Shown piece after piece: positions 1,311 to 59,479 of a stretch of DNA of 64,000 nt. The notes beneath the pieces were generated by a model. That model had not been told where the DNA came from. It ran no database searches and saw nothing but the letters and a program-made list of their open reading frames with translations. This DNA comes from Sipunculus nudus. Its lineage: Eukaryota > Annelida > Sipuncula > Golfingiida > Sipunculidae. Within the stretch, counting starts at the first letter, position 1, and each line of letters begins with the position of its first letter. The translations under genes and the position numbers were made by a program. The stretch is from assembly GCA_026874595.1 (NCBI GenBank), contig CM049306.1:66658019-66722018 (forward strand), given 5' to 3'.

Positions 1311-2077
1311 TGAGAACTAACAAACAGACAGACATACTGACAAAGTTACACAAAGCTGAGACCAGTTGACTTACTCAGCTTATGGAAAAGACCCAGAGGA
1401 AGAAAATAAGGTATAGTTTCTGTAATTAAGGTTTATAATTTTAGAGATATGGCTCAAAAATGATATGTTGGGGAAGTTCGAGTGCAGCGCCACCTAGCAG
1501 CCATATCTGGAAAATGAAAAATCCATTTCGAGATATTAGTGTAAGAAATAAGATATATTAGTTTCAAAATGATTCCTGCATATTTGTGAAATCTAGGCTG
1601 TCATTAAGTGATATCTCGAAATATCTCGTTTGACGAGATATTGTACGAGATATTGCGAGAGTTGCAGTATAATCAAACAATACTACTTGTATGCTACCTG
1701 ATGCAAAAAACTAGATCTCTGTAGCTTTAAAACTGACAAAGAAAAATGAGACCCCTTGTTTTCGAATATCATGACTTTTCCCCCAAAATGCGTAACCATG
1801 GTTACCGCAAATTTGAGGCCGCTATACACCAGAAGAAAGGCCTTGGAATGACAATTAAAATGAGCTACAGTTGAAGTAGATACGACTAATAGTGACAAAG
1901 ATATGAAGGAAAAACCGTTTTGCAAACTTTTGATGACCTTGACCGTCGACTGATAATGACAAAATTCAATAGGCTTCGGGCACTTTTGGTTGTACATCAA
2001 CTATGTAAGTTTGCAAGCGATCGCTGCAAAACTGTGCATTTTAGGCTGGAGACAGACAGACAAACAAACAAACAAAC
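1311..2077 (+). repeat. Truncated 330-bp/type I composite unit
   Basis: This is the right part of a composite unit. In order it holds a 330-type module with a CTCF-like core (1485-1504), TCTCG/CGAGA palindromes (about 1612-1660), a palindromic GTAACCATGGTTAC X-box near 1794, a degraded nuclear-receptor element near 1932 (TGACCTTGACC then GTCGACT) and a (CAGA)(CAAA) tract that ends at the TAGACGACC boundary at 2078. The same order recurs in the other units of the window. Confidence 0.8.
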
Positions 2078-3944
2078 TAGACGACCAGAGGTCGAACGCT
2101 TGACGGAAGCGGAAATAAGAAAGTCAAACTAGGAGACTACATACAGCAGGCAGGCAGTTTACATTTGGAACTGGTCAAATGAAGTACCCGAATAATGGCG
2201 TAAACAGAAGCACAATTTTGTGTGGTTATGCTGATTTTCAAAAGTCGCAGATGAGTAGACAGACAGACAGACAAGAAAAAACTGTATGTGAAGGCCATGT
2301 ACTCCTGTCATGGAGAATGGAAAACAGTCTATTAGAATAAAACTCCATATTTGATATTTCAAGAATAAGAAGAATTTAATTGTAACGTATATTAGGTCAC
2401 CATGGTAATGGAAGAATATGACAGAGTCCCCACGAGGATAATCGCATTAAATCTGGTTTCAGTTGCTGCAATCAATGTTGTGACACTGTCTATAGTTTTG
2501 GAGATATGGCACAATAATGATTGCTGCAGCGCCATCTGGCGGCTTTTTTCTAAACAAAAAAAAATAAGTTCCCAGATATTTATTTTATGATATATATTTG
2601 ATGTATAATTAAATTTAAACCCTGCAGAATGTGACAGAGTCCCCAGGAGGATAAACGCAATAAACCTAGTATCAGATGCTGCAATCAATCTTGTGACAGT
2701 GTGTATAGTTTTGGAGATATGGCACAATAATGATTGCTGCAGCGCCATCTGGCGGTTAATTTCTAAATGAAAAAAAAATGTTTCGAAATATTTTATTTTT
2801 TATTATAAATATTTAATGTATAATTAAAATTAAACCCCTGCCCCCCAACCTGCTAAACCAAGGATCCGCCCATAATTTGACACACCCAACTACAAAATCG
2901 GGGATCCGTCCCTGGTTTGAAAGATTTGCCAGTGGTTCCTAGCAACACAAGTGGCCGCAGAAGGGGACACAAGGAAAATAACAGGTGTGTTCAATTCAAA
3001 TTTAGCGGCTTTTGTCCTCTTTTCAATGCTGCTTTGTGAAATTCATGGACGACCGCGCACGCCAACTTGCTACTGTAATGGCCTTGCCGGCACTTACCGG
3101 TCAACCCTGAAGCCACTTGTGCTCACGGCAATTGGATTTATCTTCATCATTTGATAAAAAACGAGGCCAGATTTGACGGGAATTGCTATATAATCACATT
3201 ATATGACTGAGAGTGTCAGACGCTGTCACATGCTGAAAACTATATGACTGTAGTGTAAAAAATGACAGCATTATAGGCATTTGTTTAAATGTTCCTCTGT
3301 TTTCGTTTGATGACAAATGGTGCGAGATTTGACGAGATATTCACTTCTGTCACTTTAATCTACTAAAAAATCCTAGAACAATAAAAACAAGACCCTTGTA
3401 GCATTAAAATAGCTGAGATACAGATATTTGTTTAAAATCTCGTAATTTCTCGTTTGACGATAAACGGAGCGAGATTTGACGAGATTTGCAATTGAATGAC
3501 TTAGAACCAAGGGAATGCTGCCTTATACAAAAAACTTCACCCTTGTAGCATAAATATTAACAGAGATAAAAGCCAAAAACATCATGTTTTCAGATTGTCA
3601 AATTTAACCCTAAAATTTGGTAACCATGGTAACGGCGACACAAGCCTATATGTACAAAGGAATAAGCCAATGAAAAATGAAAAGTTGTAGTGTTTCCTGT
3701 ACCACGCCCCCTGGTGTTTTTTTTCGAAAAATGAAAAAACACGTTCGAGATAATACAGAAAAACAGAAAATATGTCACTTTCAGAACCTCATCTGTAAAA
3801 CTGCAACCTCTAAATCGTATTTAATGAAATCTCGAAAAGTCTCATTTGACGACAGATGGCACGAGATTTTGCGAGACTTGCATTAATTTAGCACAGAGCG
3901 TATAAAATGCTACACAATGCAAAAAACTAGAGCTCTCGAACTTA
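2078..3944 (+). repeat. Type I unit, copy 1
   Basis: First copy of the ~2.3-kb unit whose cleanest versions start at 11103 and 13396. It begins at the TAGACGACCAGAGGTCG hairpin. It then holds two CTCF-like modules with GCGCCATCTGGCGG cores (2526-2543 and 2739-2755), an AT-rich stretch, a CAGGGATCC-type inverted repeat near 2855-2920 and the small-ORF segment (2951-3154). TCTCG clusters, an X-box (3620-3633) and a third CTCF-like site (3702-3716) follow. Relative to other copies the right end is missing: CTTAAAA near 3940 joins directly to the hairpin minisatellite. Confidence 0.85.
2951..3157 (+). pseudogene. Conserved small frame, copy 1 (no ATG)
   Basis: The frame encodes the same ~60-residue hydrophobic, Cys-containing peptide seen at 12001, 14294 and 19263, but the ATG codon of those copies is AGG here. 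The frame opens only at GTG, which is not a normal eukaryotic start. Differences between copies are almost all amino-acid changing (Phe/Cys/Tyr, Pro/Gln, Tyr/Asn), so there is no sign of purifying selection. I do not recognise the peptide. It is most simply a chance open frame inside a repeat. Confidence 0.35.
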
Positions 3945-4110
3945 AAATTTCCGGCAAGCAACAAACAGACATACGCAACTGACCAACATGCTTGCCGAAA
4001 TCGAAGATTTCCGGCAAGCAACAAACAGACAAAGAGACAAAGAGACAAACAGACATACGCAACTGACCAACATGCTTGCCGAAATCGAAGATTTCCGGCA
4101 AGCAACAAAC
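3945..4110 (+). repeat. Hairpin minisatellite, cluster 1
   Basis: Tandem units of about 60-82 bp. Each has an ACAAACAGACATACGC-type linker, AACTGACCAACATG, and an inverted repeat with arms CTTGCCGAAATC and GATTTCCGGCAAG around a GAA loop. Two full units and the tail of a third (from about 3949) are visible. The second unit has extra AAAGAGAC linker repeats. Related clusters lie at 22666-22950, 32200-32308 and 35893-36122. Confidence 0.85.
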
Positions 4111-4329
4111 TAGACGACCAGAGGTCGAACGCTTGCCGGAAGTTGAAATGACAGACAGATGGACAGACAGAACATATTGTGGGTTTTCTATTATTTGAAT
4201 GACCCTCAGCATTTGCTGAGAAGTTGTGGCCTGTAAAATGACATATCAGACAAAACGAGGAAGCAGACAAAGCTGACATCAAAAGAAGAACAGACAGACA
4301 TACTGACACATCTGTGATAACAGATTACC
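4111..4329 (+). repeat. Boundary hairpin plus AACATATTGT module
   Basis: Begins with TAGACGACCAGAGGTCG, an inverted repeat (CGACC-AGA-GGTCG), followed by GCTTGCCGGAA. A module with ACAGACAGAACATATTGT, a TTTTCTATTA segment and a GACCCTCAG segment follows. The same module recurs near 5415, 7330 and 15730, always just after or near the boundary hairpin and before a 330-bp block. No gene is seen. Confidence 0.75.
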
Positions 4330-5280
4330 AGACAAAAGTGCCGAAGGTAAAGAAGAGCAAAACTAGCGATAGTTTATGTAGATAAGGTTTATAATTTTGG
4401 AGATATGGCCAAAACATGATATGTTGGGGGAGGTGAAAGTGCAGCGCCCCCTAGTGGCTATATCCGGAAAATGAAAAATCTGTTTTGAGATATTAGTGTA
4501 ACACATAAGATGTACCAGTTTTAAAAGGATTCCTGAAAAAAACTGTGGCCTGTAGAATGCTATATATGAGACGCAAGAACCAGCAAGTAGGCGGATTTGA
4601 GGACAACTGACAAACAGACAGACACGCTGACAAAGTGACACAAGATTGAGACCAGATGACATTACCAGGTCACGGAGAAGACTCAGGGAAAGAAAATAAG
4701 CCATAGTTTCTGTAATTGAGGCTTTGGGTTTTAGAGATATGGTCAATATAATGATATGTGTGTGAGAGTCAGGTGCAGCGCCACCTAGCGGCCATACCAG
4801 GAAAATGAAAAAAATGTTTTGAGATATTTCTGTAAAATATAATATGCATGTTTTCAAATGCTTCTTTAAAAACTGTGGCCTGTAGAATGCTATATGTGAG
4901 ACGCAAGAGCCAACAAGCAGGCGAATTTGAGGACAACTGACAAACAGACGAAAACACTGACAAAGTGACTCAAGATTGAGTCCAGATGACTACTCCAGGT
5001 TATGGAGAAGACCCAAAGGAAGAAAAAAGCTACAGTTTATGTAACTGAGGTTTATAATTTTGGAGATATGGCCAAAATATGATATGTTCGGGAGGTTCGC
5101 ATCCAGGGCCCCCTAGCGGCCCTATTCAAAAAATGAAAAAACAATTTCGAGATACTAGTGTAGGACTTATGATATGTCAGTTTCAAAAAGATTCCTGCAA
5201 TAATGTGGCCTTTGGCGCAAAATGAATGAAATCTCGAAATATCTCTATTCACGAGATATTTTACGAGATACTGCAAGACT
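4330..5280 (+). repeat. 330-bp tandem repeat, block A (3 units)
   Basis: The CTCF-like core anchors sit at 4441, 4775 and 5104 (spacing 334 and 329 bp). Each unit runs GAGAAGACCCA, GAAGAAAA, TTTTGGAGATATGGCC, ATGATATG, then the CTCF-like core, then GAAAATGAAAAA, TTCGAGATATTAGTGTA, TTTCAAAAGGATTC, TGTGGCCTGTAGAATGC, ACTGACAAACAGAC and CACTGACAAAGTGAC. The last unit ends in the TCTCG/CGAGA cluster near 5230-5275. Confidence 0.9.
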
Positions 5281-5640
5281 TGTAATAAAATCTTGTAGTA
5301 CTAGTTGAATGCTTCCTGATGCAAAAAACTAGATCACTCTAGCTATAAAACTGACAAAGTTACAAAAATTAGGCCTTTTATTTTCGAAAATCATGAGTTT
5401 TCCCCAAAAATGTGGACAAACGGACAGACAGAACATATTGTCGGTTTTCTATTAATGGAATGACTCTCAGGGACATTGCTGAGAATATGTGGCCCGTAGA
5501 ATGACATATGAGACAAAAGAACAGGCAAGCAGACAAAGCTGACAACAAAAGACGAACAGACAGACATACTGACTTTGTGAGACAAGATTGACACCAGATG
5601 ACATAACCTGGTGATTGAGAAGATTCAAAGGAAGAAAATG
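5281..5640 (+). repeat. Partial unit tail and AACATATTGT module
   Basis: A GATGCAAAAAACTAGATCACT segment is followed by TTTTCCCCAAAAATGTG. The sequence then jumps to ACGGACAGACAGAACATATTG, skipping the X-box, nuclear-receptor element and microsatellite found at this place in other units. The join near 5412 is therefore an internal deletion. No coding sequence is seen. Confidence 0.7.
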
Positions 5641-6890
5641 ATTTATGTAATTTAGATTTATAGTTTTGGAGGTATGGCGAATTAATGATATACCTGGGAG
5701 GCTCGACTGTAGCGCCCTCTAGCAGACATGTTCCCAAGACGACAAATGCGTTTCGTATTATTAGTGTATGACAAGAGATGTCCCAGTTTCAAAAGGATTC
5801 CGTCAAAGCTGTGGCCTGTAGAATGCTATATGTAAGGCGTAAGAACCAGCAAGCAGGCGACTTTGAGGATAACGGACAAACAGATGGACACACTGACAAA
5901 GTGACAGAAGATTGAAACCATATGCTTTAATCAGAATATGGAGAAGACTCAAAGGAAAAGAATAAGCGATAGCTTATGTAACTGAGGCTTTGGGTGTAGA
6001 GATATGGCCAATACAATGGTATGTGTGTGAGGGTCGTGTGCAGCGCCCACTAGTGGCCATATCAGGAAAATGAAAAATTCATTTTTAGAAATTAGTGTCA
6101 GACATAAGATGTAAAAGTTTCAAAAGGATTCCGTCAAAACTGTGGCCTATAGAATGCTATATGTGAGACGCAAGAACCAACAAGCAGGCGAATTTGAGGC
6201 ATTGACAAACAGGCGAAAACACTGACAAAGTGATTCAAGATTGAGTCCACATGACTACTCCAGGTTATGGAGAAGACCCAAAGGAAGAAAAAAGCTACAG
6301 TTTATGTTACTGAGGTTTATAGTTTTGGAGATATTGCCAAAGCATGATATGTTGGGAGAGGTTCGAGTTCAGCGCCCCCTAGCGGCCATATCCGGAAAAT
6401 GAAAAATTTGTTTCGAGATATTAGTGTAAGACTTAAGATGTTATAGTTTCAAAAGGATTCTTTCAAAACTGTGGCCTATAGAATGCTATATGTGAGAAGC
6501 AAGAGCAAGCAGGCGAATTTGAGGACAACTGACAAACAGACAGACACACTGACAAAGTGTCACAAAAGTTTGACCAGATGACTACACTAGGTTATGGAGA
6601 AGACCCAGAGGAAGAAATTAAGCTAAAGTTTATGTAATTGAGGCTTATAATTTTGGAGATATGGCCAAAATATGATATGTTCGGGAGGTTCGCATCCAGC
6701 GCCCCCTAGCGGCCCTATTCAAAAAATGAAAAAACAATTTCGAGATACTAGTGTAGGACTTATTATATGTCAGTTTCAAAAAGATTCCTGCAATAATGTG
6801 GCCTTTGGCGCAAGATGAATGAAATCTCGAAATATCTCTATTCACGAGATATTTTACGAGATACTGCAAGACTTGTAATAAAATCTTGTA
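5641..6890 (+). repeat. 330-bp tandem repeat, block B (4 units)
   Basis: Core anchors lie at 5710, 6041, 6370 and 6697, a spacing of about 327-331 bp. The four units differ in a fixed order of core variants: CCCTCTAGCAG, CCCACTAGTGG, CCCCCTAGCGG, CCCCCTAGCGG. Block C (7623, 7954, 8285) and block D (16022, 16353, 16684, 17011) keep the same order, so the block itself is a higher-order repeat. The unit ends in TCTCG/CGAGA palindromes. Confidence 0.9.
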
Positions 6891-7283: not shown

Positions 7284-8877
7284 TAGACGACCATTGATCG
7301 AACGCTTGCCGGAAATCGGAAGTGAAACACAGACGGACAGACAGAACATATTGTCGGTTTTCTATTAATGGAATGACTCTCAGGGACATTGCTGAGAATA
7401 TGTGGCCCGTTGAATGACATATGAAACAAAAGAACAGGCAAGCAGACAAAGCTGACAACAAAAGACGAACAGACAGACATAGTGACTTAGTGAGACAAGA
7501 TTGACACCAGATGACATAACCTAGTGATTGAGAAGATTCAAAGGAAGAAAATGATTTATGTAATTTAGATTTATAGTTTTGGAGGTTTGGCGCATTAATG
7601 ATATACTTGGGAGGCTCGACTGTAGCGCCCTCTAGCAGACATATTCCCAAGACGACAAATGCGTTTCGTATTATTAGTGTATGACATGAGATGTCCCAGT
7701 TTCAAAAGGATTCTGTCAAAGCTGTGGCCTGTAGAATGCTATATGTAAGGCGTAAGAACCAGCAAGCAGGCGACTTTGAGGATAACGGACAAACAGATGG
7801 ACACACTGACAAAGTGACAGAAGATTGAAACCAGATGCCTTAATCAGGTTATGGAGAAGACTCAAAGGAAGAAAATAAGCTATAGTTTATGTAACTGAGG
7901 CTTTGGGTGTAGAGATATGGCCAATACAATGGTATGTGTGTGAGGGTCGTGTGCAGCGCCCACTAGTGGCCATATCCGGAAAAAGAAAATTTTTTTTTCT
8001 AGATATTAGTGTAAGACATAAGATGTAATAGTTTCAAAAGGATTCCGTCAAAACTGTGGCCTATAGAATGCTATATGTGAGACGCAAGAGCCAACAAGCA
8101 GGCGAATTTGAGGACAACTGACAAACAGACGAAAACACTGACAAAGTGACTCAAGATTGAGTCCAGATGACTACTCCAGGTTATGGAGAAGACCCAAAGG
8201 AAGAAAAAAGCTACAGTTTATGTAACTGAGGTTTATAATTTTGGAGATATGGCCAAAATATGATATGTTCGGGAGGTTCGCATCCAGCGCCCCCTAGCGG
8301 TCCTATTCAAAAAATGAAAAAACAATTTCGAGATACTAGTGTAGGACTTATAATATGTCAGTTTCAAAAAGATTCCTGCAATAATGTGGCCTTTGGCGCA
8401 AGATGAATGAAATCTCGAAATATCTCTATTCACGAGAAATTTTACGAGATACTGCAAGACTTGTAATAAAATCTTGTAGTACTAGTTAAATGCCCCTTAT
8501 GCAAAAAACTAGATCACTCTAGCTATAAAACTGACAAAGTTACAAGAATTAGGCCTTTTATTTTCGAAAATCATGAGTTTTCCCCAAAAATGTGTAACCA
8601 TAGAAACAGCAGATTTCAGCAACATATATATCAGAAGAAAGGCCTTGGAATGCCGATTAAAATGAGCCATGTTTGAAGTGGCTATGACAAATAGTAATGG
8701 AGATATGAAGAAAAGAGCACTTTAGGAACTTTTGATGACCTTGACCTTGACCTTTGACCTATATTGCCCAAAAACAATAGGCTTCTTGCATTTTTGATTT
8801 TACACAAACTGTTAAAGTTTGAAAGCGATGGGATCAAAATTGCGACCTTTAGAGACTGGACAGACAAACAAACAGAC
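7284..8877 (+). repeat. Composite unit with 330-bp block C (3 units)
   Basis: Starts at a variant boundary hairpin (CGACCATTGATCG). It continues with the AACATATTGT module and three 330-bp units (core anchors 7623, 7954, 8285), one fewer than block B. The tail carries TCTCG palindromes, a degraded X-box near 8588 (GTAACCATAGAAAC), the longest nuclear-receptor run (8736-8759, four half-sites) and a CAAAC tract. The 5710-to-7623 distance of about 1.9 kb gives the higher-order period. Confidence 0.85.
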
Positions 8878-11102
8878 TAGACGACCAGAGTTCGAACGCT
8901 TGCCGGAAGCGGAAATAAGAAATTCAAACTAGGAGACAACATACAGCAGGCAGGCAGTTTACATTTGGAACTGGTCAAATGAAGTACCCGAATAATGGCG
9001 TAAACAGAAGCACAATGTTGTGTAGTTATGCTGATTTTCAAAAGTCGCAGATGAGTAGACAGACAGACAGACAAGAAAAAACTCCATGTGAAGGCCATGT
9101 ACTCCTGTCATAGAGAATGGAAAACAGTCTATTAGAATAAAACTCCATATTTTGAATTTCAAGAATAAGAAGAATTTAATTGTAACGTATATTAGGTCAC
9201 CATGGCAATGGAATAATATGAAAGAGTCCCCAGGAGGATAAACGCAATAAATCTAGTATCAGATGCTGCAATCAATGTTGTGACAGTGTGTGTAGTTTTG
9301 GAGATATGGCACAATAATGATTGCTGCAGCGCCATCTGGCGGCTTATTTCTAAACGGAAAAAAATAAGTTTCGAAATATTTTATTTTTTATTATAAATAT
9401 TTAATGTATAATTAAAATTAAACCCCTGCCCCCCAACTGCTAAACCAGGGATCCGCCCATATTTTGACAAACGCATCTATAAAATCGGGGATCCGTCCCT
9501 GGTTTGAAAGATTTGCCAGTGGTTCCTGGCAACACAAGTGGCCCCACAAAGGGGACACAATGAAAATAACAGGTGTGTTCAATTCAAATTTAGCGGCTTT
9601 TGTCCTCTTTTCAATGCTGCTTTGTGAAATTCATGGATGACCGTGCACGCCAACTTGCAACTGTAATGGCCTTGCTGGCACTTATCGGTCAACCCTGAAG
9701 CCACTTGTGCTCACGGCATTTGGATTTATCTTCATCATTTGATAAAAAACGAGGCCAGATTTGACGGGAATTGCTATATAATCACATTGTATGAATGAGA
9801 GTGTCAGACGCTGTCACATGCTGAAAACTATATGTCTGTAGTGTAAAAAATGACAGCATTATAGGCATTTTTTAAAATGGTCCTCTGTTTTCGTTTGACG
9901 ACAAATGGTGCGAGATTTTACGAGATATTCACTTGTGTCACTTTAATCTACTAAAAAATCCTAGAACAATAAAAACTAGACCCTTGTAGCATAAAAATAG
10001 CCGAGATACAGATACTTCTTTAAAATCTCGAATTTCTCGTTTGGTGGGAGATGATGCGAGATTGGGCGAGATTTGCAATTCCTTCATATTAAGCTCCAAA
10101 AAAGCTACCAAATGCTGAAAACAACTGCTCTTTAGCTTAAAAGGTGGTCAGGTTATAAGCATTTCTGTGAAATCTCGTAATTTCTCGTTTGACGAAAAAC
10201 CGAGCGAGATTTGACGAGATTTGCAACTGAATGACTTAGAACAAAGGGAATGCTGCCTTATGCAAAAAATTAGACCCTTGTAGCATAAATATTAACAGAG
10301 ATAAAAGCCAAAAACCTCATGTTTTCCGATGGTCAAGTTTTACCCCAAAATTTGGTAACCATGGTTACCGCAGCACAAGGCTATATATACGAAGGAATAA
10401 GGCGATGATACTAGTTTTAGATGCGACAAGAAAAATTGTTATATGCTTAATATTTTTTTAGATATTGCAGAAAAATGATAAGTTGTAGTGTTTCCAGTAC
10501 CACGCTCCCTGGTGGCTTTTTTCGAAAAATGAAAAAGCAAGTTCGAGATAATACAGAAAAACAGAAAATATGTCACTTTCAGAACCTTAGCTGTAAAACT
10601 GCAACCTCTAAATCGTATTTTATGAAATCTCGAAAAGTCTCATTTGACGACAAATGGCACGAGATTTTGCGAGACTTCTATTAATTTTCCATAGAGCATA
10701 TTAAATGCTACACAATGCAAAAAACTAGACCTCTCTAACTTAAAAAATGAGAAATTTGGAGGGAAATTTTCGAATTTTCTGATTTCCCCCCATAATACGT
10801 TACCATTGTAACCATTGACCGGAAAAATTTGCTAGCACTTGGAATGCTAACATAAAGAGGAATAAAATGAGCTACAGATTATGCGGCTACGATTATTATT
10901 GACGAAGATATGAAGAAAATAAAAATTTAAGGTTTTTTGGTGACAATGACCTTGACCTTTGACCGATCATGACCAAAAACAATAGGCTCCGAGGAGAACC
11001 GATCTTACACTATATCTATAAGTTTCAGAGCGATTGGTGAAAAATTGTGGCCTGTAGAGCACAGACAGACAGACAGACAAACAAACAAACAGACAAACAG
11101 AC
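8878..11102 (+). repeat. Type I unit, copy 2 (2,225 bp)
   Basis: Runs from boundary hairpin to boundary hairpin. It has a single CTCF-like GCGCCATCTGGCGG core (9326-9343), whereas copies 3 and 4 have two. The small-ORF frame is broken by a TGA where other copies read CGA (near 9637). A TCTCG region near 10030-10220 is longer than in copies 3 and 4. A decayed CTCF-like core (10500-10516, CTCCC instead of CCCCC), a mutated X-box near 10797 and a nuclear-receptor element (10947-10964) follow. Confidence 0.88.
9561..9741 (+). pseudogene. Conserved small frame, copy 2 (stop codon)
   Basis: Homologous to the 60-codon frame at 12001. Here ATG is present, but a CGA-to-TGA change stops the frame after about 26 codons (following the Glu-Ile-His-Gly segment). 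A further change near the end alters Ile to Phe. This copy cannot make the peptide, which argues against a required protein function for the family. Confidence 0.45.
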
Positions 11103-11554
11103 TAGACGACCAGAGGTCGAACACTTGCCGGAAGCGGAAATAAGAAAGTCAGACTAGGAGAAACATTCAGCAGGCAGTTTACATTTGGAACTAGTCAAAT
11201 GAAGTACCCGAATAATGGCGTAAACAGAAGCACAATTTTGTGTGGTTATGCTGATTTTTAAAAGTCGCAAAAGAGTAGAAAGACAAACAAACAGACAGAC
11301 GGGAAAAAAACTCCATGTGAAGGCCATGTACTCCTGTCATGGAGAATGGAAAACAGTCTATTAGAATAAAACTCCATATTTTGAATTTCAAGAATAAGAA
11401 GAATTTAATTGTAACGTATATTAGGTCACCAAGGTAATGGAAGAATATGACAGAGTCCCCACGAGAGTAATCGTATTAAATCTAGCTTCAGATGCTGCAA
11501 TCAATGTTGTGACACTGTCTATAGTTTTGGAGATATGGCACAATAATGATTGCT

Positions 11555-11572
11555 GCAGCGCCATCTGGCGGC
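11555..11572 (-). promoter_or_regulatory. CTCF-like motif (CCATCT variant)
   Basis: Read on the minus strand the core is CCGCCAGATGGCGC, which fits the degenerate animal CTCF core CCASYAGRKGGCRS except A>G at position 3. It lies just after the conserved GAGATATGGCACAATAATGA flank. Binding is not shown by sequence, and invertebrate CTCF preference could differ. Confidence 0.4.
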
Positions 11573-11883
11573 TATTTTCTAAAAGGAAAAAAAATAAGTT
11601 CCCTGATATTTTTTTTATTATATATATTTGATGTATAATTAATCTAACCCGTGCAGAATGTGACAGAGTCCCCAGATGGATAAACGCAATAAATCTAGTA
11701 TCAGATGCTGCAATCAATGTTGTGACAGTGTGTATAGTTTTGGTGATATGGCACAATAATGATTGCTGCAGCGCCATCTGGCGGCTTATTTCTAAACGGA
11801 AAAAAATAAGTTTCGAAATATTTTATTTTTTATTATAAATATTAAATGTATAATTAAAATTAAACCCCTGCCCCCCAACTGCT

Positions 11884-12183: not shown

Positions 12184-12793
12184 TAAAAAACGAGGCGAGA
12201 TTTGACGGGAATTGCTATATAATCACATTATATGACTGAGAGTGTCAGACGCTGTCACATGCTGAAAACTATATGTCTGTAGTGTAAAAAATGACAGCAT
12301 TATAGGCATTTGTTTAAATGGTCCTCTGATTTCGTTTGACGACAAATGGTGCGAGATTTGACGAGATATTCACTTGTGTCACTTTAATCTCCTAAAAAAT
12401 CCTAGAACAATAAAAACTAGACCCTTGTAGCATTAAAATAGCCGAGATACAGATATTTGTTTAAAATCTCGTAATTTTTCGTTTGACGATAAACTGAGCG
12501 AGATTTGACGAGATTTGCAATTGAATGACTTAGAACAAAGGGAATGCTGCCTTATGCAAAAAACTTCACCCTTGTAGCATAAATATTAACAGAGATAAAA
12601 ACCAAAAACATCATGTTTTCAGATTGTCAAGTTTTACCCTAAAATTTGGTAACCATGGTAACGGCGGCACAAGCCTATATGTACAAAGGAATAAGGCAAT
12701 GATCCTAGTTTAAGATGCGACAAAAAAATTTGTTATATGCTTAATATTTTTTTAGATATTGCGGAAAAATGAAAAGTTGTAGTGTTCCCGGTA

Positions 12794-12810
12794 CCACGCC
12801 CCCTGGTGGC
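12794..12810 (-). promoter_or_regulatory. CTCF-like motif (CCCCCTGGTGG variant)
   Basis: The minus-strand reading is GCCACCAGGGGGCGTGG. It matches the vertebrate CTCF consensus TGGCCACCAGGGGGCGCTA across the whole CCACCAGGGGGCG core. Similar sites lie at 3702, 15087, 22096, 23553, 24814, 30320, 31582 and in the P2 and P3 copies. Confidence 0.5.
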
Positions 12811-13091
12811 TATTTTCGAAAAATGAAAAAATAAGTTCGAGATAATACAGAATAACAGAAAATAAGTCACTTTCAGAACCTTAGCTGTAAAACTGCAACC
12901 TCTAAATCGTATTTAATGAAATCTTGAAAAGTCTCATTTGACGACAATGGCACGAGATTTTGCGAGACTTCTATTAATTTTCCATAGAGCATATTAAATG
13001 CTACACAATGCAAAAAACTAGACCTCTCTAACTTAAAAAATGAGAAATTTGGAGGGAAATTTTCGAATTTTCTGATTTCCCCCCATAATAC

Positions 13092-21294: not shown

Positions 21295-21310
21295 AATGGA
21301 CCACGACTAT

Positions 21311-21339: not shown

Positions 21340-21340
21340 A

Positions 21341-42851: not shown

Positions 42852-44123
42852 ATACGCGGGTGACCAATATGCTTGCGAAAATCGAAGATTTCCGGCAAGC
42901 AATAAAGTTAGGACTGTGCCTCCAACATGTAGGATAATAGACAGGGCCCGGAAAGGCCGACACGCACCGCTGCACACGCCGGCCGCCCACCGTAAGGACC
43001 CTGCCGGCACTTGCGGCGATGGCACGGGTCTTCGTGGTTTGGCGAAAAACGGCGCGAGATTTGACGAGACTTACAATATGACCCCTGAATGTGACTGCGA
43101 GTGTCAGGCGCTACCCAACGCTGCAAACCATGTGTCTGTAGCGTAAAAAATGACAGAATTATAGGCATTTCTTTGAACGGTCCCGTGTTCTCGTTTCACG
43201 AGAAACGGTGCGAGATATGACGAGACTTTCTATTGAATGACTAAGAAGTAAACTAATGCTATCTAACGCCAAAAACCAGAGCTTTCTATCGCAAATATTG
43301 ACAGAGATAGAAGCAGGAAAACTCCGTTTTTCAGATTGTCAAGTTTCACCCCAAAATTTGGTCACCATGGTGACGGCAGCACAAGGCTAAATGTACGAAG
43401 GAATAAAGCAATGATCCTAGTTTTAGATGCGACAAATAAAATTGTTCTATGCTTAATATTTTTTTGGATATTGCGGAAAAATGATAAGTTGTAGTGTTTC
43501 CAGTACCACGCCCCCTGGTGGCTATTTCCGAAAAATGAAAAAACAAGTTCGAGATAATACAGAACAACAGAAAATATGTCACTTTCAGAACCTTAGCTGT
43601 AAAACTGCCACCTGTAAATCGTATTTAATGAAATCTCGAAAAGTCTCATTTGACGACAAATGGCACGAGATTTTGCGAGACTTACATTAATTTCGCATAG
43701 AGCATATTAAATGCTACGCATTGCAAAAAACTAGACCTCTCTAACTTAAACAATGAGAAATTTGGAGGGAAATTTTCGAATTTTCTGAATTTCCCCCAAA
43801 AATACGTTACCATGGTAACCATTGACCGGAAAAATTTGCCAGCACTTGGAAAGCTGACATAGTGAGGAATAAAATGAGCTACAGATTATGCGGCTACGAT
43901 TATTATTGACAAAGATATGAAGAAAGTAAAAATTTCAGGTTTTTTGGTGACCCTGACCTTGACCTTTGACCGATCATGACCAAAAACAATAGGCTCCGAG
44001 GAGAATAGATCTTACAGTTTATGTATAAGTTTCAGAGCGATTGCTTAAAAACTGTGGCCTCTAGCGCGTGTACATACAGACAAACAGACAGACAAACAAA
44101 CAAACAAACAAACAAACATACGC
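42852..44123 (+). repeat. Alpha unit 3, P2
   Basis: Copy of 30928-32199, with a CTCF-like core near 43506 and the palindromic GTCACCATGGTGAC near 43362. Confidence 0.88.
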
Positions 44124-47200: not shown

Positions 47201-50200
47201 ACTGAACAATTGCTTTCGAGATATTAGTGTATGACGTAACATGTATCAGTTTCAAAAGGATGCCTGCATATCTGTGGCCTATAGGGCATGTCACCGTGAA
47301 ATCGCGAAATCTCATTCGACGAGAAACGGTGCGAGATTTTGCAAGATTTTTGGTTGGATCACCGAGAACTCACCAAGCGCTACAAGATGCAAAAATTTTG
47401 ACCTCTCTAGCATAAAAACTGACAGAGTTAGAAGCTGAAAAGTGCATATTTTCAAAATTGAAAGGTTTTACCCCAAAAATAGAGAAATCTGGCAATAGCG
47501 CACTTTGGCACCTATGCGCAAAAACAAGCCCATGGACCCTAGTTTAAGGTGCTGTGATGGAAATGGCCCAATGTTTAATAGTTCTGGAGGTATAGCACCA
47601 AAACAAATTTTCATGTTTTTTCATCTGCAACGCCCCCTGGCGGCCATTTCCAAAATCTGAAAAACCCGTTTCGAGATATTCTTATGTTACATAAAATATC
47701 TCAGAATCAGTAAAATTGCTGCAAATTTGAAAAATATCACGAAATTCCATGATTTCTCCCCAAAATTGCGTAACCATGGTAACAGCGAAATGAGGCAATT
47801 TTGCAGTGTTGGAAGTGGCCATTCAGTGGCAAATAAAACGGGCAACAGATTAGGTGCCTACGGCTATTTTTGACGAAGGTATGAAGAAAAAACCGTTTTT
47901 GAGCTTTTTGGTGACCCTGACCTTGACCCTTGACCGATCATGACCAAAAACAATAGGCTCCGAGAAGAACCGATTATACACTCTATCTATAAGTTTCAGG
48001 ACGATTGGTGCAAAATTGTGGCCTGTAGAGCGGGGACATACAGACAAACAAACAAACGGAACTGATCAACATACTTGTCGAAATCTCTGATTCCGGCAAG
48101 CAATAAACTATAACGCGACAGAAATGGCAAACCGGCCGGCAAAGAGTGCCTGTGGTCACTTATTTTATACGGCGAACGCTATAATTTTTGCAGTCACGGG
48201 AAAGCGTGTCTGTCTTTCATACTAAAACGCGTGCATGCATGCGTGATGGCATATGTATTTGTGCATGCGGGTTTTAATTTTTACAAAGTTGCTAAAATTT
48301 GTGGGGACCGTGTATGATTAAACAAAAGAGGTCATGGGCAGAAAGGCCATGAAACGCCCATTCATATGGTGTACAGTTTATGTACCTAACATGTGTAGTT
48401 TTGGAGATATGGTTAAACAATGATAGTAGGTACGGGGTTGCAGTGCAGCGCCCCCTAGCGGAAATTTTCCAAAAACTGAACAATTGCTTTCGAGATATTA
48501 GTGTATGACGTAACATGTATCAGTTTCAAAAGGATGCCTGCATATCTGTGGCCTATAGGGCATGTCACCGTGAAATCGCGAAATCTCATTCGACGAGAAA
48601 CGGTGCGAGATTTTGCAAGATTTTTGGTTGGATCACCGAGAACTCACCAAGCGCTACAAGATGCAAAAATTTTGACCTCTCTAGCATAAAAACTGACAGA
48701 GTTAGAAGCTGAAAAGTGCATATTTTCAAAATTGAAAGGTTTTACCCCAAAAATAGAGAAATCTGGCAATAGCGCACTTTGGCACCTATGCGCAAAAACA
48801 AGCCCATGGACCCTAGTTTAAGGTGCTGTGATGGAAATGGCCCAATGTTTAATAGTTCTGGAGGTATAGCACCAAAACAAATTTTCATGTTTTTTCATCT
48901 GCAACGCCCCCTGGCGGCCATTTCCAAAATCTGAAAAACCCGTTTCGAGATATTCTTATGTTACATAAAATATCTCAGAATCAGTAAAATTGCTGCAAAT
49001 TTGAAAAATATCACGAAATTCCATGATTTCTCCCCAAAATTGCGTAACCATGGTAACAGCGAAATGAGGCAATTTTGCAGTGTTGGAAGTGGCCATTCAG
49101 TGGCAAATAAAACGGGCAACAGATTAGGTGCCTACGGCTATTTTTGACGAAGGTATGAAGAAAAAACCGTTTTTGAGCTTTTTGGTGACCCTGACCTTGA
49201 CCCTTGACCGATCATGACCAAAAACAATAGGCTCCGAGAAGAACCGATTATACACTCTATCTATAAGTTTCAGGACGATTGGTGCAAAATTGTGGCCTGT
49301 AGAGCGGGGACATACAGACAAACAAACAAACGGAACTGATCAACATACTTGTCGAAATCTCTGATTCCGGCAAGCAATAAACTATAACGCGACAGAAATG
49401 GCAAACCGGCCGGCAAAGAGTGCCTGTGGTCACTTATTTTATACGGCGAACGCTATAATTTTTGCAGTCACGGGAAAGCGTGTCTGTCTTTCATACTAAA
49501 ACGCGTGCATGCATGCGTGATGGCATATGTATTTGTGCATGCGGGTTTTAATTTTTACAAAGTTGCTAAAATTTGTGGGGACCGTGTATGATTAAACAAA
49601 AGAGGTCATGGGCAGAAAGGCCATGAAACGCCCATTCATATGGTGTACAGTTTATGTACCTAACATGTGTAGTTTTGGAGATATGGTTAAACAATGATAG
49701 TAGGTACGGGGTTGCAGTGCAGCGCCCCCTAGCGGAAATTTTCCAAAAACTGAACAATTGCTTTCGAGATATTAGTGTATGACGTAACATGTATCAGTTT
49801 CAAAAGGATGCCTGCATATCTGTGGCCTATAGGGCATGTCACCGTGAAATCGCGAAATCTCATTCGACGAGAAACGGTGCGAGATTTTGCAAGATTTTTG
49901 GTTGGATCACCGAGAACTCACCAAGCGCTACAAGATGCAAAAATTTTGACCTCTCTAGCATAAAAACTGACAGAGTTAGAAGCTGAAAAGTGCATATTTT
50001 CAAAATTGAAAGGTTTTACCCCAAAAATAGAGAAATCTGGCAATAGCGCACTTTGGCACCTATGCGCAAAAACAAGCCCATGGACCCTAGTTTAAGGTGC
50101 TGTGATGGAAATGGCCCAATGTTTAATAGTTCTGGAGGTATAGCACCAAAACAAATTTTCATGTTTTTTCATCTGCAACGCCCCCTGGCGGCCATTTCCA

Positions 50201-51639
50201 AAATCTGAAAAACCCGTTTCGAGATATTCTTATGTTACATAAAATATCTCAGAATCAGTAAAATTGCTGCAAATTTGAAAAATATCACGAAATTCCATGA
50301 TTTCTCCCCAAAATTGCGTAACCATGGTAACAGCGAAATGAGGCAATTTTGCAGTGTTGGAAGTGGCCATTCAGTGGCAAATAAAACGGGCAACAGATTA
50401 GGTGCCTACGGCTATCTTTGACGAAGGTATGAAGAAAAAACCGTTTTTGAGCTTTTTGGTGACCCTGACCTTGACCCTTGACCGATCATGACCAAAAACA
50501 ATAGGCTCCGAGAAGAACCGATTATACACTCTATCTATAAGTTTCAGGACGATTGGTGCAAAATTGTGGCCTGTAGAGCGGGGACATACAGACAAACAAA
50601 CAAACGGAACTGATCAACATACTTGTCGAAATCTCTGATTCCGGCAAGCAATAAACTATAACGCGACAGAAATGGCAAACCGGCCGGCAAAGAGTGCCTG
50701 TGGTCACTTATTTTATACGGCGAACGCTATAATTTTTGCAGTCACGGGAAAGCGTGTCTGTCTTTCATACTAAAACGCGTGCATGCATGCGTGATGGCAT
50801 ATGTATTTGTGCATGCGGGTTTTAATTTTTACAAAGTTGCTAAAATTTGTGGGGACCGTGTATGATTAAACAAAAGAGGTCATGGGCAGAAAGGCCATGA
50901 AACGCCCATTCATATGGTGTACAGTTTATGTACCTAACATGTGTAGTTTTGGAGATATGGTTAAACAATGATAGTAGGTACGGGGTTGCAGTGCAGCGCC
51001 CCCTAGCGGAAATTTTCCAAAAACTGAACAATTGCTTTCGAGATATTAGTGTATGACGTAACATGTATCAGTTTCAAAAGGATGCCTGCATATCTGTGGC
51101 CTATAGGGCATGTCACCGTGAAATCGCGAAATCTCATTCGACGAGAAACGGTGCGAGATTTTGCAAGATTTTTGGTTGGATCACCGAGAACTCACCAAGC
51201 GCTACAAGATGCAAAAATTTTGACCTCTCTAGCATAAAAACTGACAGAGTTAGAAGCTGAAAAGTGCATATTTTCAAAATTGAAAGGTTTTACCCCAAAA
51301 ATAGAGAAATCTGGCAATAGCGCACTTTGGCACCTATGCGCAAAAACAAGCCCATGGACCCTAGTTTAAGGTGCTGTGATGGAAATGGCCCAATGTTTAA
51401 TAGTTCTGGAGGTATAGCACCAAATTTTTTAAGGAAGGTATAGCACCTATTTTTGACGAAGGTATGAAGAAAAAACCGTTTTTGAGCTTTTTGGTGACCC
51501 TGACCTTGACCCTTGACCGATCATGACCAAAAACAATAGGCTCCGAGAAGAACCGATTATACACTCTATCTATAAGTTTCAGGACGATTGGTGCAAAATT
51601 GTGGCCTGTAGAGCGGGGACATACAGACAAACAAACAAA
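44233..51639 (+). repeat. 1,274-bp satellite array, P2 (6 units)
   Basis: Units start at 44233, 45508, 46782, 48057, 49331 and 50605 with lengths 1,275, 1,274, 1,275, 1,274, 1,274 and 1,035. Using the GCGGGAAA/GCGGAAA marker the order is A-B-A-B-B-D, against A-B-D in P1. Units are otherwise nearly identical; a T-to-C change near 50416 marks one. Each full unit carries two CTCF-like cores about 457 bp apart, one X-box and one nuclear-receptor run. D lacks the second core and the X-box. Confidence 0.95.
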
Positions 51640-51869: not shown

Positions 51870-53088
51870 GGCAAGCAATAAAGTTGTGACTGTGCCTCCA
51901 ACATGTACGATAATAGATGGGGCCCGGAGAGGCCGTCACGGACCGCTGCACACGCCGGCCGCCCACCGTAAGGACCCTGCCGCCACTTGCGGCGACGGCA
52001 CGTGTCTTCGTGGTTTGGCGTAAAACGGCGCGAGATTTGACGAGATTAACAATGTAACCCCTGAATGTGACCGCGAGTGTCAGCCGCTATGCAGCGCTGC
52101 ATACCATGTGTCTGTAGCGTCAAAAATGACAGAATTATAGGCATTTCTTTGAATGGTCACGTGTTCTCGTTTCACGAGAAACGGTGCGGGATATGACGAG
52201 ACTTGCGATTGAACGGCTTAGAACTAGAGGGATGCTGTCTAACGCCAAAAACCAGACCTTTCTATCGCAAATATCAACAGAGATAGAAGCTGGAAAACTC
52301 CGCATTTTCAGATTGTCAAGTTTTACCCCAAAATTCGGTAACCATGGTAACGGCAGCACAAAGCAACGTGTGCGAAGGGATAAGCCAACGTTCCTAGTTT
52401 CAGATACGACCAAAAAAATGGTGTCACGTTTAATATTTTTTGAGATATTGCAGAAAAATGATATGTTACAGTGTTTCATGTACCACGCCCCCTGGTGGCT
52501 ATTTCCAAAAAATGAAAAATTGGTTTCGAGATATTTCTAAATAACACAAAATATGTCATTTTCAAAGTCATAGTTTAAAAAATGCGACCTGTAAGCCATA
52601 TTTAATGAAATCTCGAAAATTCTCGTTTGACGAGATATTATACGAGATATCGCGAGACTTTTAATAAAATCCTGCAGTACTTGTTAAATGCTACCTGATG
52701 CAAAAAACTAGAACTCTCTAGCTTTAAAAATGACAAAGTTAGAAAAAATTGTCCTTTGATTTTCGATTTACATCACTTTTACCCAAAAATACGTAACCAT
52801 GGTGACAACCAATTTGAATCAGCTACACACCAGACGAAAGGCCTTGGAATGACGATTAAAATGAGCCATGTTTGAAGTGGCTATGACAAATAGTAATTGA
52901 GATATGAAGAAAAGAGCACTTTAGGAACTTTTGATGACCTTGACCTTGACCTTTGACCTATATTGCCCAAAAACAATAGGCTTCTTGCATTTTTGATTTT
53001 ACACAAACTGTGAAAGTTTGAAAGCGATGGGATCAAAATTGTGACCTGTAGAGACTGGACAGACAAACAAACAAACAAACAAACAGAC
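51870..53088 (+). repeat. Alpha unit (start of P3)
   Basis: Matches the P2 version, including all ten variants that distinguish P2 from P1. CTCF-like core near 52483, nuclear-receptor run near 52934. Confidence 0.88.
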
Positions 53089-56499: not shown

Positions 56500-58225
56500 A
56501 TTCAATTTACAATCAATTTGCAGGAAAACCTGGCATTTTATTTTACTTCAATACACCAACAATAAACAATCTAAGGACAAGTGAACAGGCTACCATACAT
56601 ATCTTAGGGAAAGGAAAACAGCAAAGGTTGTTTACATTGAGGACACATGGCAACCAGGTGGTTGGCGCTGGTCTGTGAAGCTTACGAAGCAGCAATCAAA
56701 GGAAGACGATAACAACACAATAGAAGTCTTCTTCATGGGCCATCGCACACCCATAGAACACGGCTCCAACTGTCAAGTGTAATGCCCCTGCCGACATTTA
56801 CTATCACATACTGCCGCCACTTATGGTCACGGCAATAGGATGTACTTTTTTATTTGAAGAAAAAACGATCCCAGATTTGACGAAACTTACAATATAAACA
56901 CATAATGTGACCGAGAGTGTTAGACGCTATCGAATGCTGAAAACTAAAGGTCTTCAGCATTAAAATAACAGAATTATAGGCGTATCTTTGAATGGTCCCA
57001 TGTTCTCGTTTGACAAGAAATGATGCGAGATATGACGAGATATTCAATTTTGTCACTTCAAACTAGTCAAGTGAATCTTGAACAATAGAAAAATAAAATC
57101 TCTGGCATTCAAATGACAGAGATATAGACATTTGTTCGAATTCTCGAATATTCTCGTTTGGCGGGAGATGGTACGAGATGTGGCGAGATATAAGTTATTA
57201 TCTTGTTAAGCTCCCAAAACGCAACAAAATGCTGAAAACTGCTCCTCTTTAGCCGAAAAGGTGACCAAGTTATATGCATTTCTGTGAAATCTCGTAATTT
57301 CTCGTTTGTCGGAAAACAGAGCGAGATTCTACGAGACTTGCAATTAACTGCATTAGTGGCAAGGGAATGCTACCTCATGCAGAAAACTAGACACTTGTAG
57401 TATAAATATTAACAGAGATAGAAGCAAAAAACTTATTATTTTCAGATTGCCAAGTTTTACCCCAAAATTTGGTTACCATGGTAACAGCAGCGCAAAGCTA
57501 CATGTACGCAGGAATAAGCCGACGATCCTAGTTTCAGATAAGACAGTAAACATTGTGCCACGTTTAATATTTTTTTTTGGTATTGCAGAAAAATGGTAAG
57601 TTGCAGTGTTTCCAGTACCACGCCCCCTGGTGGCTAATTTCAAAAAATGAAAAAACAAGTTCGAGATAATACAGAAAAACAGAAAATATGTCACTTTTAG
57701 AACCTTAGCTGTAAAACTGCCACCTCTAAATCGTTTTTAATTAAATCTCGAAAAGTCTCATTTGACGACAAATGGCACGAGATTTTGCGAGACTCCCGTT
57801 AATTTTCCATAGAGCATATTAAATGCTACACAATGCAAAAAACTAGACCTCTCTAACTTAAAAAATGAAAAATTTTGAGTGAAATTTTCGAATTTTCTGA
57901 TTTCCCCCCAAAAATACGTTACGATGGTAACAATCGACCAGAAAAATTTGCTAGCACTTGGAAAGCTAACATAAAGAGGAATAAAATGAGCTACAGATTA
58001 TGCGGCTACGATTATTATTGACAAAGATATGAAGAAAGTAAAAATGTTAGGTTTTTTGGTGACCCTGACCTTGACCTTTGACCGATCATGACCAAAAACA
58101 ATAGGCTCCGAGGAGAACCAATCTTACACTTAATGTATAAGTTTCAGAGCGATTGCTTAAAAACTGTGGCCTGTAGCGCGTGTACATACAGACAAACAAA
58201 CAGACAGACAAACAAACAAACAAAC
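56500..58225 (+). repeat. Type I variant unit, P3
   Basis: Copy of 41125-42851, one base shorter in the T run near 57570. CTCF-like core near 57619, X-box near 57472, mutated X-box near 57919. Confidence 0.85.
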
Positions 58226-59479
58226 ATACGCGGGTGACCAATATGCTTGCGAAAATCGAAGATTTCCGGCAAGCAATAAAGTTAGGACTGTGCCTCCAAC
58301 ATGTAGGATAATAGACAGGGCCCGGAAAGGCCGACACGCACCGCTGCACACGCCGGCCGCCCACCGTAAGGACCCTGCCGGCACTTGCGGCGATGGCACG
58401 GGTCTTCGTGGTTTGGCGAAAAACGGCGCGAGATTTGACGAGACTTACAATATGACCCCTGAATGTGACTGCGAGTGTCAGGCGCTACCCAACGCTGCAA
58501 ACCATGTGTCTGTAGCGTAAAAAATGACAGAATTATAGGCATTTCTTTGAACGGTCCCGTGTTCTCGTTTCACGAGAAACGGTGCGAGATATGACGAGAC
58601 TTTCTATTGAATGACTAAGAAGTAAACTAATGCTATCTAACGCCAAAAACCAGAGCTTTCTATCGCAAATATTGACAGAGATAGAAGCAGGAAAACTCCG
58701 TTTTTCAGATTGTCAAGTTTCACCCCAAAATTTGGTCACCATGGTGACGGCAGCACAAGGCTAAATGTACGAAGGAATAAAGCAATGATCCTAGTTTTAG
58801 ATGCGACAAATAAAATTGTTCTATGCTTAATATTTTTTTAGATATTGCGGAAAAATGATAAGTTGTAGTGTTTCCAGTACCACGCCCCCTGGTGGCTATT
58901 TCCGAAAAATGAAAAAACAAGTTCGAGATAATACAGAACAACAGAAAATATGTCACTTTCAGAACCTTAGCTGTAAAACTGCCACCTGTAAATCGTATTT
59001 AATGAAATCTCGAAAAGTCTCATTTGACGACAAATGGCACGAGATTTTGCGAGACTTACATTAATTTCGCATAGAGCATATTAAATGCTACGCATTGCAA
59101 AAAACTAGACCTCTCTAACTTAAACAATGAGAAATTTGGAGGGAAATTTTCGAATTTTCTGAATTTCCCCCAAAAATTCGTTACCATGGTAACCATTGAC
59201 CGGAAAAATTTGCCAGCACTTGGAAAGCTGACATAGTGAGGAATAAAATGAGCTACAGATTATGCGGCTACGATTATTATTGACAAAGATATGAAGAAAG
59301 TAAAAATTTCAGGTTTTTTGGTGACCCTGACCTTGACCTTTGACCGATCATGACCAAAAACAATAGGCTCCGAGGAGAATAGATCTTACAGTTTATGTAT
59401 AAGTTTCAGAGCGATTGCTTAAAAACTGTGGCCTCTAGCGCGTGTACATACAGACAAACAGACAGACAAACAAACAAAC
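58226..59479 (+). repeat. Alpha unit 3, P3, truncated at the microsatellite
   Basis: Copy of 42852-44105 with a few substitutions (TTTTTTTAG for TTTTTTTGG near 58828; AAATTCG for AAATACG near 59176). It ends in GACAGACAAACAAACAAAC and then switches to the spacer boundary hairpin. Confidence 0.88.

Follow-up and report, generated by a model that had tools for sequence, protein, structure and literature searches.

Tandem, same-polarity CTCF-type sites in the core repeats of a putative HINE-type rolling-circle element of Sipunculus nudus

We analyzed a 64,000-nucleotide stretch of the genome of the annelid Sipunculus nudus (the window; assembly GCA_026874595.1, 1.43 Gb in 153 contigs; contig CM049306.1, here C1:66,658,019-66,722,018). 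We found that the window holds a long series of repeat modules, each with a sequence resembling the binding site of CTCF and nearly all in the same orientation. The modules appear to be the internal core repeats of a dispersed mobile element which, judged by its architecture, is a HINE-type non-autonomous Helentron, a rolling-circle element. The interpretation that we favor, at a probability of about 60%, is that such elements disperse tandem CTCF sites of one polarity that are bound by the host CTCF.

Results

CTCF-type motifs in the window

An original prediction, made from the letters of the window, described a ladder of about 55 CTCF-like motifs in every repeat class and proposed a comparison with dinucleotide-shuffled sequence. 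We made this comparison with a CTCF position weight matrix (PWM; the 19-bp core of JASPAR MA0139.1, counts entered by hand). There were 51 matches at p<1e-5 (49 on the minus strand, two on the plus strand) and 48 at p<1e-6 (47 and one). In contrast, 100 shuffled windows gave means of only 1.28 and 0.06 matches (maxima 4 and 1), and 300 PWMs with permuted columns gave means of 1.5 and 0.08 (maxima 35 and 7). All 21 positions that had been picked by eye carried a CTCF-like motif on the minus strand. Single-site p values ranged from 2e-10 to 6e-8 for 11 of 13 representative sites; the site at 1485 (p=1.8e-6) and that of family E (p=7.9e-6) were weaker.

We also searched with a hidden Markov model (HMM) of the flanks alone. 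The motif was masked, and the model was trained on the flanks of 15 modules that had originally been found through a motif scan. It detected 57 modules, 55 full ones and two truncated before the motif, so the predicted number of about 55 was right. The core scored p<1e-5 in 50 of the 55 full modules and p<1e-6 in 48; the remaining five scored 9.4-12.4. The motif lay on one strand in 54 of the 55. At 90% identity these modules collapse to about 15 lineages in six families (A, B, C, D1, D2 and E). When one family at a time was left out of training, all 55 were still recovered (12/12, 8/8, 16/16, 9/9, 7/7 and 3/3, in that order), and the sole matches away from sites were the two truncated D2 copies.

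Spacings between modules included 323-334, 456-457, 818, 211-213 and 1,261-1,263 bp, in agreement with predicted spacings of about 330, 460 and 1,274 bp (the last being 818+456). The statement that every repeat class carries the motif was too broad, because two satellites in the window are without it: the 14 copies of a 365-bp satellite reached a PWM score of only 8.8, and a 177-bp array (98-685) had no match at p<1e-5.

Spread through the genome

The 16-bp CTCF core CCRCYAGRKGGCGYKG had 13,062 exact matches in the genome, almost evenly divided between strands (6,587 and 6,475), and its reversed control had one. The string CAGCGCCNCCTAGCGGC had 3,381 matches (reversed control, 0), and a pattern combining the motif with the upstream box described below had 6,100 (control, 0). 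Among the first 100 core sites listed on C1, 89 had another site within 5 kb; 59 fell into three clusters of 10-27 sites and the other 41 into 18 dispersed clusters of 1-6 sites.

From C1 we sampled 20 stretches, each 10 kb long and picked for holding an exact site. They contained 119 module matches, 116 of them covering the motif (100 at p<1e-5, 84 at p<1e-6), and polarity was uniform in 17 of the 18 stretches with at least two modules. Fourteen of the 20 loci held 1-6 modules. Few PWM matches lay elsewhere: 26 of 127 at p<1e-5 were outside modules (13 of these being one recurrent repeat word that scores 12.8), and only three of 88 at p<1e-6.

Architecture of the carrier element

We found that the modules belong to an element with sharp ends. 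Alignments between unlinked loci break off abruptly at shared points, with a common right end in all 11 loci inspected and a common left end in nine. Eight elements examined were 1.1-3.8 kb long and contained 1-5 core modules each, mostly at steps of about 330 bp. With small changes, all eight have AAACTAGACGACC-ata-GGTCG..GCTTGCCGGAAA at one end and (ACAG)n..ACATACGCAACTGACCAACATGCTTGCCGAAATCGAAGATTTCCGGCAAGC-AAYAAA at the other. The latter end forms a hairpin of 13 pairs (fold z -5.9 and -6.0 in the copies at L025 and L024) and is adjoined by a microsatellite, (ACAG/ACAA)n.

Read along the minus strand of the window, an element consists of a T-rich start, a subterminal repeat with an inverted copy, a (GTCT/GTTT)n microsatellite, the core repeats, a second subterminal repeat, a small palindrome and CTAGTTT. 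The CTCF motif in the core repeats is thus on the element's top strand. Both ends have a subterminal inverted repeat (subTIR), GCTTGCCGGAAA(TC) on one side and GATTTCCGGCAAGC on the opposite side. Inspection by eye places the beginning of the 5' copy about 6 nt, and the end of the 3' copy about 23 nt, from the respective terminus, compared with 2-4 and 38-60 nt described for mite HINEs (PMC4067079). Also by eye, a palindrome, CGACC-TAT-GGTCG, lies 7-8 nt from one end, and in seven of the eight elements (all except L016) the left end is preceded by 12 A/T-rich bases, the right flanks being mixed. Elements terminate in runs of A, which read as T along the element's own strand, and no target-site duplication was seen by eye.

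HINEs are described as having subTIRs, an inverted repeat beside the 5' subTIR, a microsatellite, central tandem repeats and a terminal palindrome (PMC4067079, PMC7492417). Because the ends, subTIRs, microsatellite, core repeats and palindromes follow this plan, and that of the oyster element Cg_HINE, we identify the carrier by its architecture as a putative HINE-type non-autonomous Helentron. The original prediction spoke of a satellite system. Satellite-like arrays are indeed present in the window; the description falls short in that the carrier is a genome-dispersed element. Helitron_like_N had 143 matches in the genome, several in open frames of more than 2,000 aa.

An origin from a tRNA-derived short interspersed element (SINE) was rejected: we found no tRNA, no Rfam match and, by eye, no conserved B box. 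Ten of the 38 frames of at least 110 aa in the window were scanned, and none had a Pfam match above cut-off. Three pattern matches in IMG/VR and two in bacterial metagenome-assembled contigs of GTDB did not align to the window; further scans of IMG/VR were empty, and no relatives were found in plasmids (1,275 bases searched) or phages (6,936 bases searched).

The host CTCF

The host has a CTCF gene (L034; C11:67,037,578-67,038,510) in an 887-aa open frame with 11 fingers. It is 56% identical to human CTCF over the finger region (E 4e-109; runner-up 9.5e-56), and its best PDB match is CTCF (1.6e-113). Fingers 3-5 of CTCF read the AGRKGGCGC half of the core and fingers 6-7 the other half. In fingers 3, 4 and 5 of the host protein, the residues at -1, 2, 3 and 6 are those of human CTCF in 12 of 12 cases. 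At PWM position 6, in the half read by fingers 6-7, 22 of 30 non-redundant modules have G instead of the human A. Fingers 8, 9 and 11 keep one, two and one of four contact residues. Taken together, the scores, both kinds of control, the genome counts and the host fingers support well the predicted identity of the motif as CTCF-type.

A query with the CTCF fingers gave at least 325 matches in the genome, many of which, by eye, are densely packed on C16, C7 and C9 and look like a large expansion of C2H2 zinc fingers. Changes in finger number are described in other invertebrates: echinoderm CTCF lost two fingers and hemichordate CTCF one (PMC13317027), so that the 11 fingers of the host protein speak against both groups as its source.

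Conservation of the motif

All six families have the motif in their core repeat. Outside it, families are 42-60% identical (A and E, 79%), rising to 50-76% within 90 columns of the motif and to 50-94% inside it. All families share variants of TTTTGGAGATATGGC (the GAGATAT box) upstream and of TTTCGAGATATT downstream of the motif; because of these shared variants we regard the families as branches of a single old superfamily and the motif as probably inherited, not gained repeatedly.

Within families A and C the motif varies little (variation is as low in only 2% and 5% of 19-bp windows). We also assembled a non-redundant set of 30 modules, taken both from the window and from elsewhere on C1, that differ by at least 8%. 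Nucleotide diversity was 0.185 in the core and averaged 0.344 outside the motif, and the 14-column window of lowest diversity (0.179) fell inside the motif.

Structure of the window and other sequence features

The coordinates of modules and element ends are collected in Table 1. The window is nearly all repetitive, with one single-copy run longer than 200 bp (19453-21336), which ends in an ACGG-type microsatellite and, as judged by eye, a short palindromic tail. The 365-bp satellite interrupts the stack of elements four times (27685-29082, 39609-41006, 55350-56381 and 61730-63991). Segmental duplications of 5.9-11.5 kb are 99.6-99.9% identical, including the pairs 24140-35677/36062-47602 (99.85% over 11.5 kb) and 32303-40640/48051-56381 (99.64% over 8.3 kb). 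They reflect either very recent amplification or duplication in the assembly. Because of these duplications and of closer repeats the 55 modules are not independent, and part of the high motif density in the window is due to segmental duplication.

Among the Helitron_like_N matches listed on C1 (110.9 Mb), 13 of 15 fall within 63.9-71.8 Mb, and the window lies at 66.7 Mb. Because of this clustering, the region of about 63.9-71.8 Mb may be a transposon-rich, perhaps pericentromeric, zone.

Other regulatory words recur in the units. Counts of these consensus words are inflated by copying. RFX X-box words (GTNRCC N0-3 RGYAAC, for example CGTTACCATGGTAACC) had 35 matches on both strands, compared with a mean of 0.45 in 40 shuffles (positions include 3620, 12649, 13092, 15387, 22396, 30173, 31882 and 33297); they flank the CTCF module on either side in family C units and lie downstream of it in D2. 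TCAAGGTCA had 34 matches, all on the minus strand (shuffle mean, 0.72), and DR1 words had 16 (none in shuffles). Clusters of nuclear-receptor half-sites (TGACCTTGACCTTTGACC) recur across units in a conserved stretch of about 60 bp with CAATAGG (positions include 1934, 7149, 8736, 10947, 17463, 24005, 32030 and 33445). Since RFX, TCAAGGTCA and DR1 words recur in the same units, the elements may be bundles of regulatory sites and not insulators alone. Words for NRF1, REST half-site, p53, YY1, E2F, ETS, CRE, NF-Y, E-box, AP-1, SRF and heat shock did not exceed, in the window, the highest of 40 shuffles.

Table 1. Modules and element ends in the window. Modules are from the flank HMM and PWM scan (HMM, flank HMM only). 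Searches for ends of the CTAGACGACCATAGGTCGAACGCTTGCCGGAAA type (up to 9 mismatches allowed, at most 3 seen) and for hairpin ends each gave 0 in one shuffled window.
Feature	Coordinates	Strand	Motif	PWM score	Remark
Module A	1407..1572	-	1485	15.0	
Module B	2464..2611	-	2527	19.6	
Module B	2675..2824	-	2740	20.7	
Module C	3672..3787	-	3702	13.2	5' part missing
Module A	4366..4529	-	4442	26.4	top score of window
Module A	4696..4858	-	4776	24.2	
Module A	5028..5191	-	5104	18.1	
Module E	5639..5797	-	5710	12.4	weakened motif; HMM
Module A	5963..6128	-	6041	21.8	
Module A	6292..6457	-	6370	25.4	
Module A	6619..6784	-	6697	23.3	
Module E	7552..7710	-	7623	12.4	weakened motif; HMM
Module A	7875..8042	-	7954	21.8	
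Module A	8209..8372	-	8285	22.1	
Module B	9262..9412	-	9327	19.6	
Module C	10420..10586	-	10500	12.1	weakened motif; HMM
Module B	11491..11639	-	11556	22.0	
Module B	11704..11854	-	11769	19.6	
Module C	12714..12880	-	12794	21.3	
Module B	13784..13932	-	13849	22.0	
Module B	13997..14147	-	14062	19.6	
Module C	15007..15173	-	15087	21.3	
Module E	15950..16109	-	16022	12.4	weakened motif; HMM
Module A	16274..16440	-	16353	21.8	
Module A	16606..16771	-	16684	25.4	
Module A	16932..17098	-	17011	23.3	
Module B	18011..18167	-	18084	9.4	decayed motif; HMM
Module C	18467..18633	+	18536	18.9	inverted segment, sole plus-strand motif
Module C	22016..22181	-	22096	18.9	
Module C	23473..23639	-	23553	21.3	
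Module C	24734..24900	-	24814	21.3	
Module C	30239..30406	-	30320	21.3	
Module C	31502..31668	-	31582	21.3	
Module D1	32619..32787	-	32698	20.4	
Module D2	33076..33242	-	33155	22.1	
Module D1	33894..34061	-	33973	21.3	
Module D2	34350..34516	-	34429	22.1	
Module D1	35168..35335	-	35247	21.3	
Truncated D2	35625..35677	-			stops before motif, at duplication junction; HMM
Module C	36656..36822	-	36736	21.3	
Module C	42163..42330	-	42244	21.3	
Module C	43426..43592	-	43506	21.3	
Module D1	44543..44711	-	44622	20.4	
Module D2	45000..45166	-	45079	22.1	
Module D1	45818..45985	-	45897	21.3	
Module D2	46274..46440	-	46353	22.1	
Module D1	47092..47260	-	47171	20.4	
Module D2	47549..47715	-	47628	22.1	
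Module D1	48367..48534	-	48446	21.3	
Module D2	48823..48989	-	48902	22.1	
Module D1	49641..49808	-	49720	21.3	
Module D2	50097..50263	-	50176	22.1	
Module D1	50915..51082	-	50994	21.3	
Truncated D2	51372..51424	-			stops before motif, at duplication junction; HMM
Module C	52403..52569	-	52483	21.3	
Module C	57538..57704	-	57618	21.3	
Module C	58800..58966	-	58880	21.3	
Head-to-tail junction of two elements	4082..4142	-			hairpin end AAATCGAAGATTTCCGGCAAGCAACAAA, then other end CTAGACGACC...GGTCG...GCTTGCCGGAA
Element end CTAGACGACCATAGGTCGAACGCTTGCCGGAAA	15682..15714	-			0 mismatches
Element end with hairpin	32180..32250	-			slightly decayed copy; fold z -2.3, 4/200 shuffles as good
Ends of CTAGACGACCATAGGTCGAACGCTTGCCGGAAA type (12)	2077, 4110, 7283, 8877, 11102, 13395, 15682, 17616, 25419, 37341, 53088, 59479				
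Hairpin ends (18)	3998, 4082, 22743, 22866, 24186, 30955, 32221, 32281, 35972, 36040, 36108, 42879, 44145, 44205, 51719, 51787, 51855, 58253				

Discussion

We suggest that the core repeat of a HINE-type element carries one CTCF-type site on the element's top strand. Because the site sits in a satellite-like core repeat, one insertion could bring a polar array, that is, a short row of sites in the same direction. Head-to-tail stacking of elements, followed by segmental duplication, would give macrosatellite-like arrays, as in the window. Copies that are unmethylated, at least, are most likely bound by the host CTCF; each array would then be a same-polarity row of CTCF sites and, where CTCF-cohesin loop extrusion operates, a one-sided barrier. 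The sites, their polarity, the ends of the elements, the spread through the genome, the host CTCF gene and the retention of the motif in diverged copies are observed; we infer CTCF binding in vivo, its control by methylation and a barrier or insulator effect, and the same holds for the dense CTCF-binding or insulator-like array of the original prediction. In mammals, tandem CTCF sites are described as insulators (PMC7087399). A CTCF-like motif is reported at squid domain boundaries (PMC9023564), its direction being unresolved there (PMC10658182), and in echinoderms the orientation of CTCF motifs at domain boundaries is reported to be without pattern (PMC13317027). Given these reports, it would be unsafe to assume a polar barrier in an invertebrate, and direction-dependent action is hypothetical.

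Several further observations weigh against our interpretation, or limit how the evidence for it is to be read. The host protein keeps only one of four human contact residues in finger 6 and two of four in finger 7. The upstream CTCF motif (M2) was found 5' of the core in none of the 55 modules by a simple search for its consensus word. Vertebrate sites do not require M2, many peaks there containing just the core, and its absence is in line with the changed contacts in fingers 8, 9 and 11. Conservation is uneven: family B in the window shows hardly any excess in the motif (41% of 19-bp windows are conserved to the same degree), and between families E and C the similarity of the motif barely exceeds that of the remaining sequence (0.50 and 0.47). 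Variation among columns followed the information content of the CTCF motif (Spearman -0.57 in 15 lineages, -0.54 in 30 modules); since the 293 alternative placements within the module include five that fit better (rank 6 of 294), this test is suggestive only. The sampled loci had been chosen for an exact site and, when rows matching the exact query pattern were removed, the site was kept in 14 of 20 modules. With regard to the carrier, the left end was not recognised in two of the 11 loci (L022 and L028), and the longest element, L016 (3.8 kb), may be composite.

The alternative that survives best, although we consider it unlikely, is that the sites are silent passengers: inherited from a single ancestral element, similar to CTCF sites on account of the young age of the elements, methylated or heterochromatic, and unoccupied by CTCF. 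Many copies within families are more than 90% identical, as this would predict, and the window is almost wholly repetitive. Each of the 55 motifs has one or two CpGs, so blocking by methylation is plausible. However, the CpG observed/expected ratio of the window is 0.78, with no sign of heavy methylation-driven loss, and the motif has persisted while flanks of different families are only about half identical. Sites at p<1e-6 were kept in 24 of the 30 modules, compared with 6.3 (sd 2.0, maximum 12) in 200 runs of a neutral simulation that was star-like, with each module at its own divergence and tree structure ignored, a simplification that also tempers the case for CTCF.

Rather improbable, in our view, is that the motif serves the element itself, for example within a promoter in the core repeat or within a signal for Rep or for replication, its likeness to CTCF being incidental. 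The motif does occur in all six families, and a second box lies at a near-fixed distance and is equally conserved. In the 30 modules the diversity of TTTTGGAGATATGGC was 0.182 and that of the motif 0.179, and in the six-family alignment the box was the more conserved (0.83 and 0.80). Constraint is therefore not unique to the CTCF site. In contrast, the match is to 14-16 bp of a high-information host motif and appears to vary mainly where CTCF tolerates change, and shared Helentron signals are described at element ends (PMC4067079).

We give little credence to recognition by another host C2H2 zinc-finger protein, for example one that silences the element. The packed matches to the CTCF fingers suggest that candidates are numerous, and lineage-specific C2H2 loop proteins of ctenophores are described as binding a GC-rich motif (PMC12221973). 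However, the host does have CTCF, whose contact residues in fingers 3-5 are those of the human protein, and no further finger protein was linked to the motif. A structural, possibly pericentromeric, satellite with a role unrelated to CTCF is very improbable: it would fit the macrosatellite-like stacking, the near-identical duplications and the three large clusters on C1, but most clusters formed by those 100 sites (18 of 21) are small and dispersed, and 14 of the 20 sampled loci contain 1-6 modules.

Binding of the dispersed arrays by the host CTCF, the interpretation that we prefer, has a bolder extension that we regard as doubtful. The transposon family might have written much of the host's CTCF landscape, with thousands of one-sided, methylation-gated barriers and the window as a giant DXZ4-like boundary; if so, transposition would be an engine of domain boundaries. 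The elements also open two questions to testing: does CTCF polarity influence genome folding beyond the vertebrates, and why do Helentron core repeats persist and grow into satellites? For bench work, the modules offer CTCF sites that vary naturally in sequence and copy number.

Rodent B2 SINEs spread CTCF sites and, to our knowledge, the transposon-borne CTCF sites of vertebrates come as one site per insertion. For a lamprey hAT-Tip100 repeat (repeat 274), chromatin immunoprecipitation peaks are reported on 489 of 586 copies (PMC5504073). In each case, as here, a mobile repeat spreads a canonical CTCF site to many places, and the likening to B2 in the original prediction was apt. The difference is that in Sipunculus one insertion delivers several sites in line, on a dispersed carrier that is a putative rolling-circle element. 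Placozoan Mutator terminal repeats likewise tie an invertebrate transposon family to a chromatin-loop motif, although the motif and the element class are different; non-bilaterians are described in the same source as lacking CTCF (PMC12221973).

Among tandem repeats, D4Z4 and the 1q23.3 tRNA repeat also have CTCF-linked units, but are human loci with gene-bearing, non-mobile units (PMC2639723, PMC4041453). The closest likeness in polarity is DXZ4/Dxz4, whose tandem units each have a conserved CTCF site of the same polarity and whose most conserved sequence fits the CTCF consensus (PMC3218863, PMC3491370, PMC6985041); the common polarity of Dxz4 is reported to set contact direction in mammals (PMC6985041). 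The window shares this arrangement of sites. In contrast, DXZ4 occupies a single X-linked locus, and its 3-kb GC-rich units are known to be bound by CTCF, whereas the sipunculan sites are predicted and lie in dispersed, AT-rich mobile elements.

HINE-type elements are described in mites, in Drosophila (DINE-1) and in the Pacific oyster (Cg_HINE) (PMC4067079, PMC7492417), and their core repeats also give stand-alone satellite arrays (PMC8268682). The word CTCF does not occur in the main texts of these three papers. In the entries listed from the open-licence PMC literature on CTCF with satellites, molluscan transposons and Helitrons, the present repeat family is not named, and literal motif strings occur only in papers unrelated by title. 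The microsatellites and the type of element are reminiscent of bivalves (PMC7492417). The element resembles HINE and Cg_HINE in its subTIRs, inverted repeat, microsatellite, tandem core repeats and terminal palindrome, and differs in a core repeat of about 330 bp (also 213-bp and 1,261-1,274-bp units) with a CTCF-type site. Transposon-borne CTCF sites are themselves known; what is new is a rolling-circle carrier whose satellite-like core repeat holds one.

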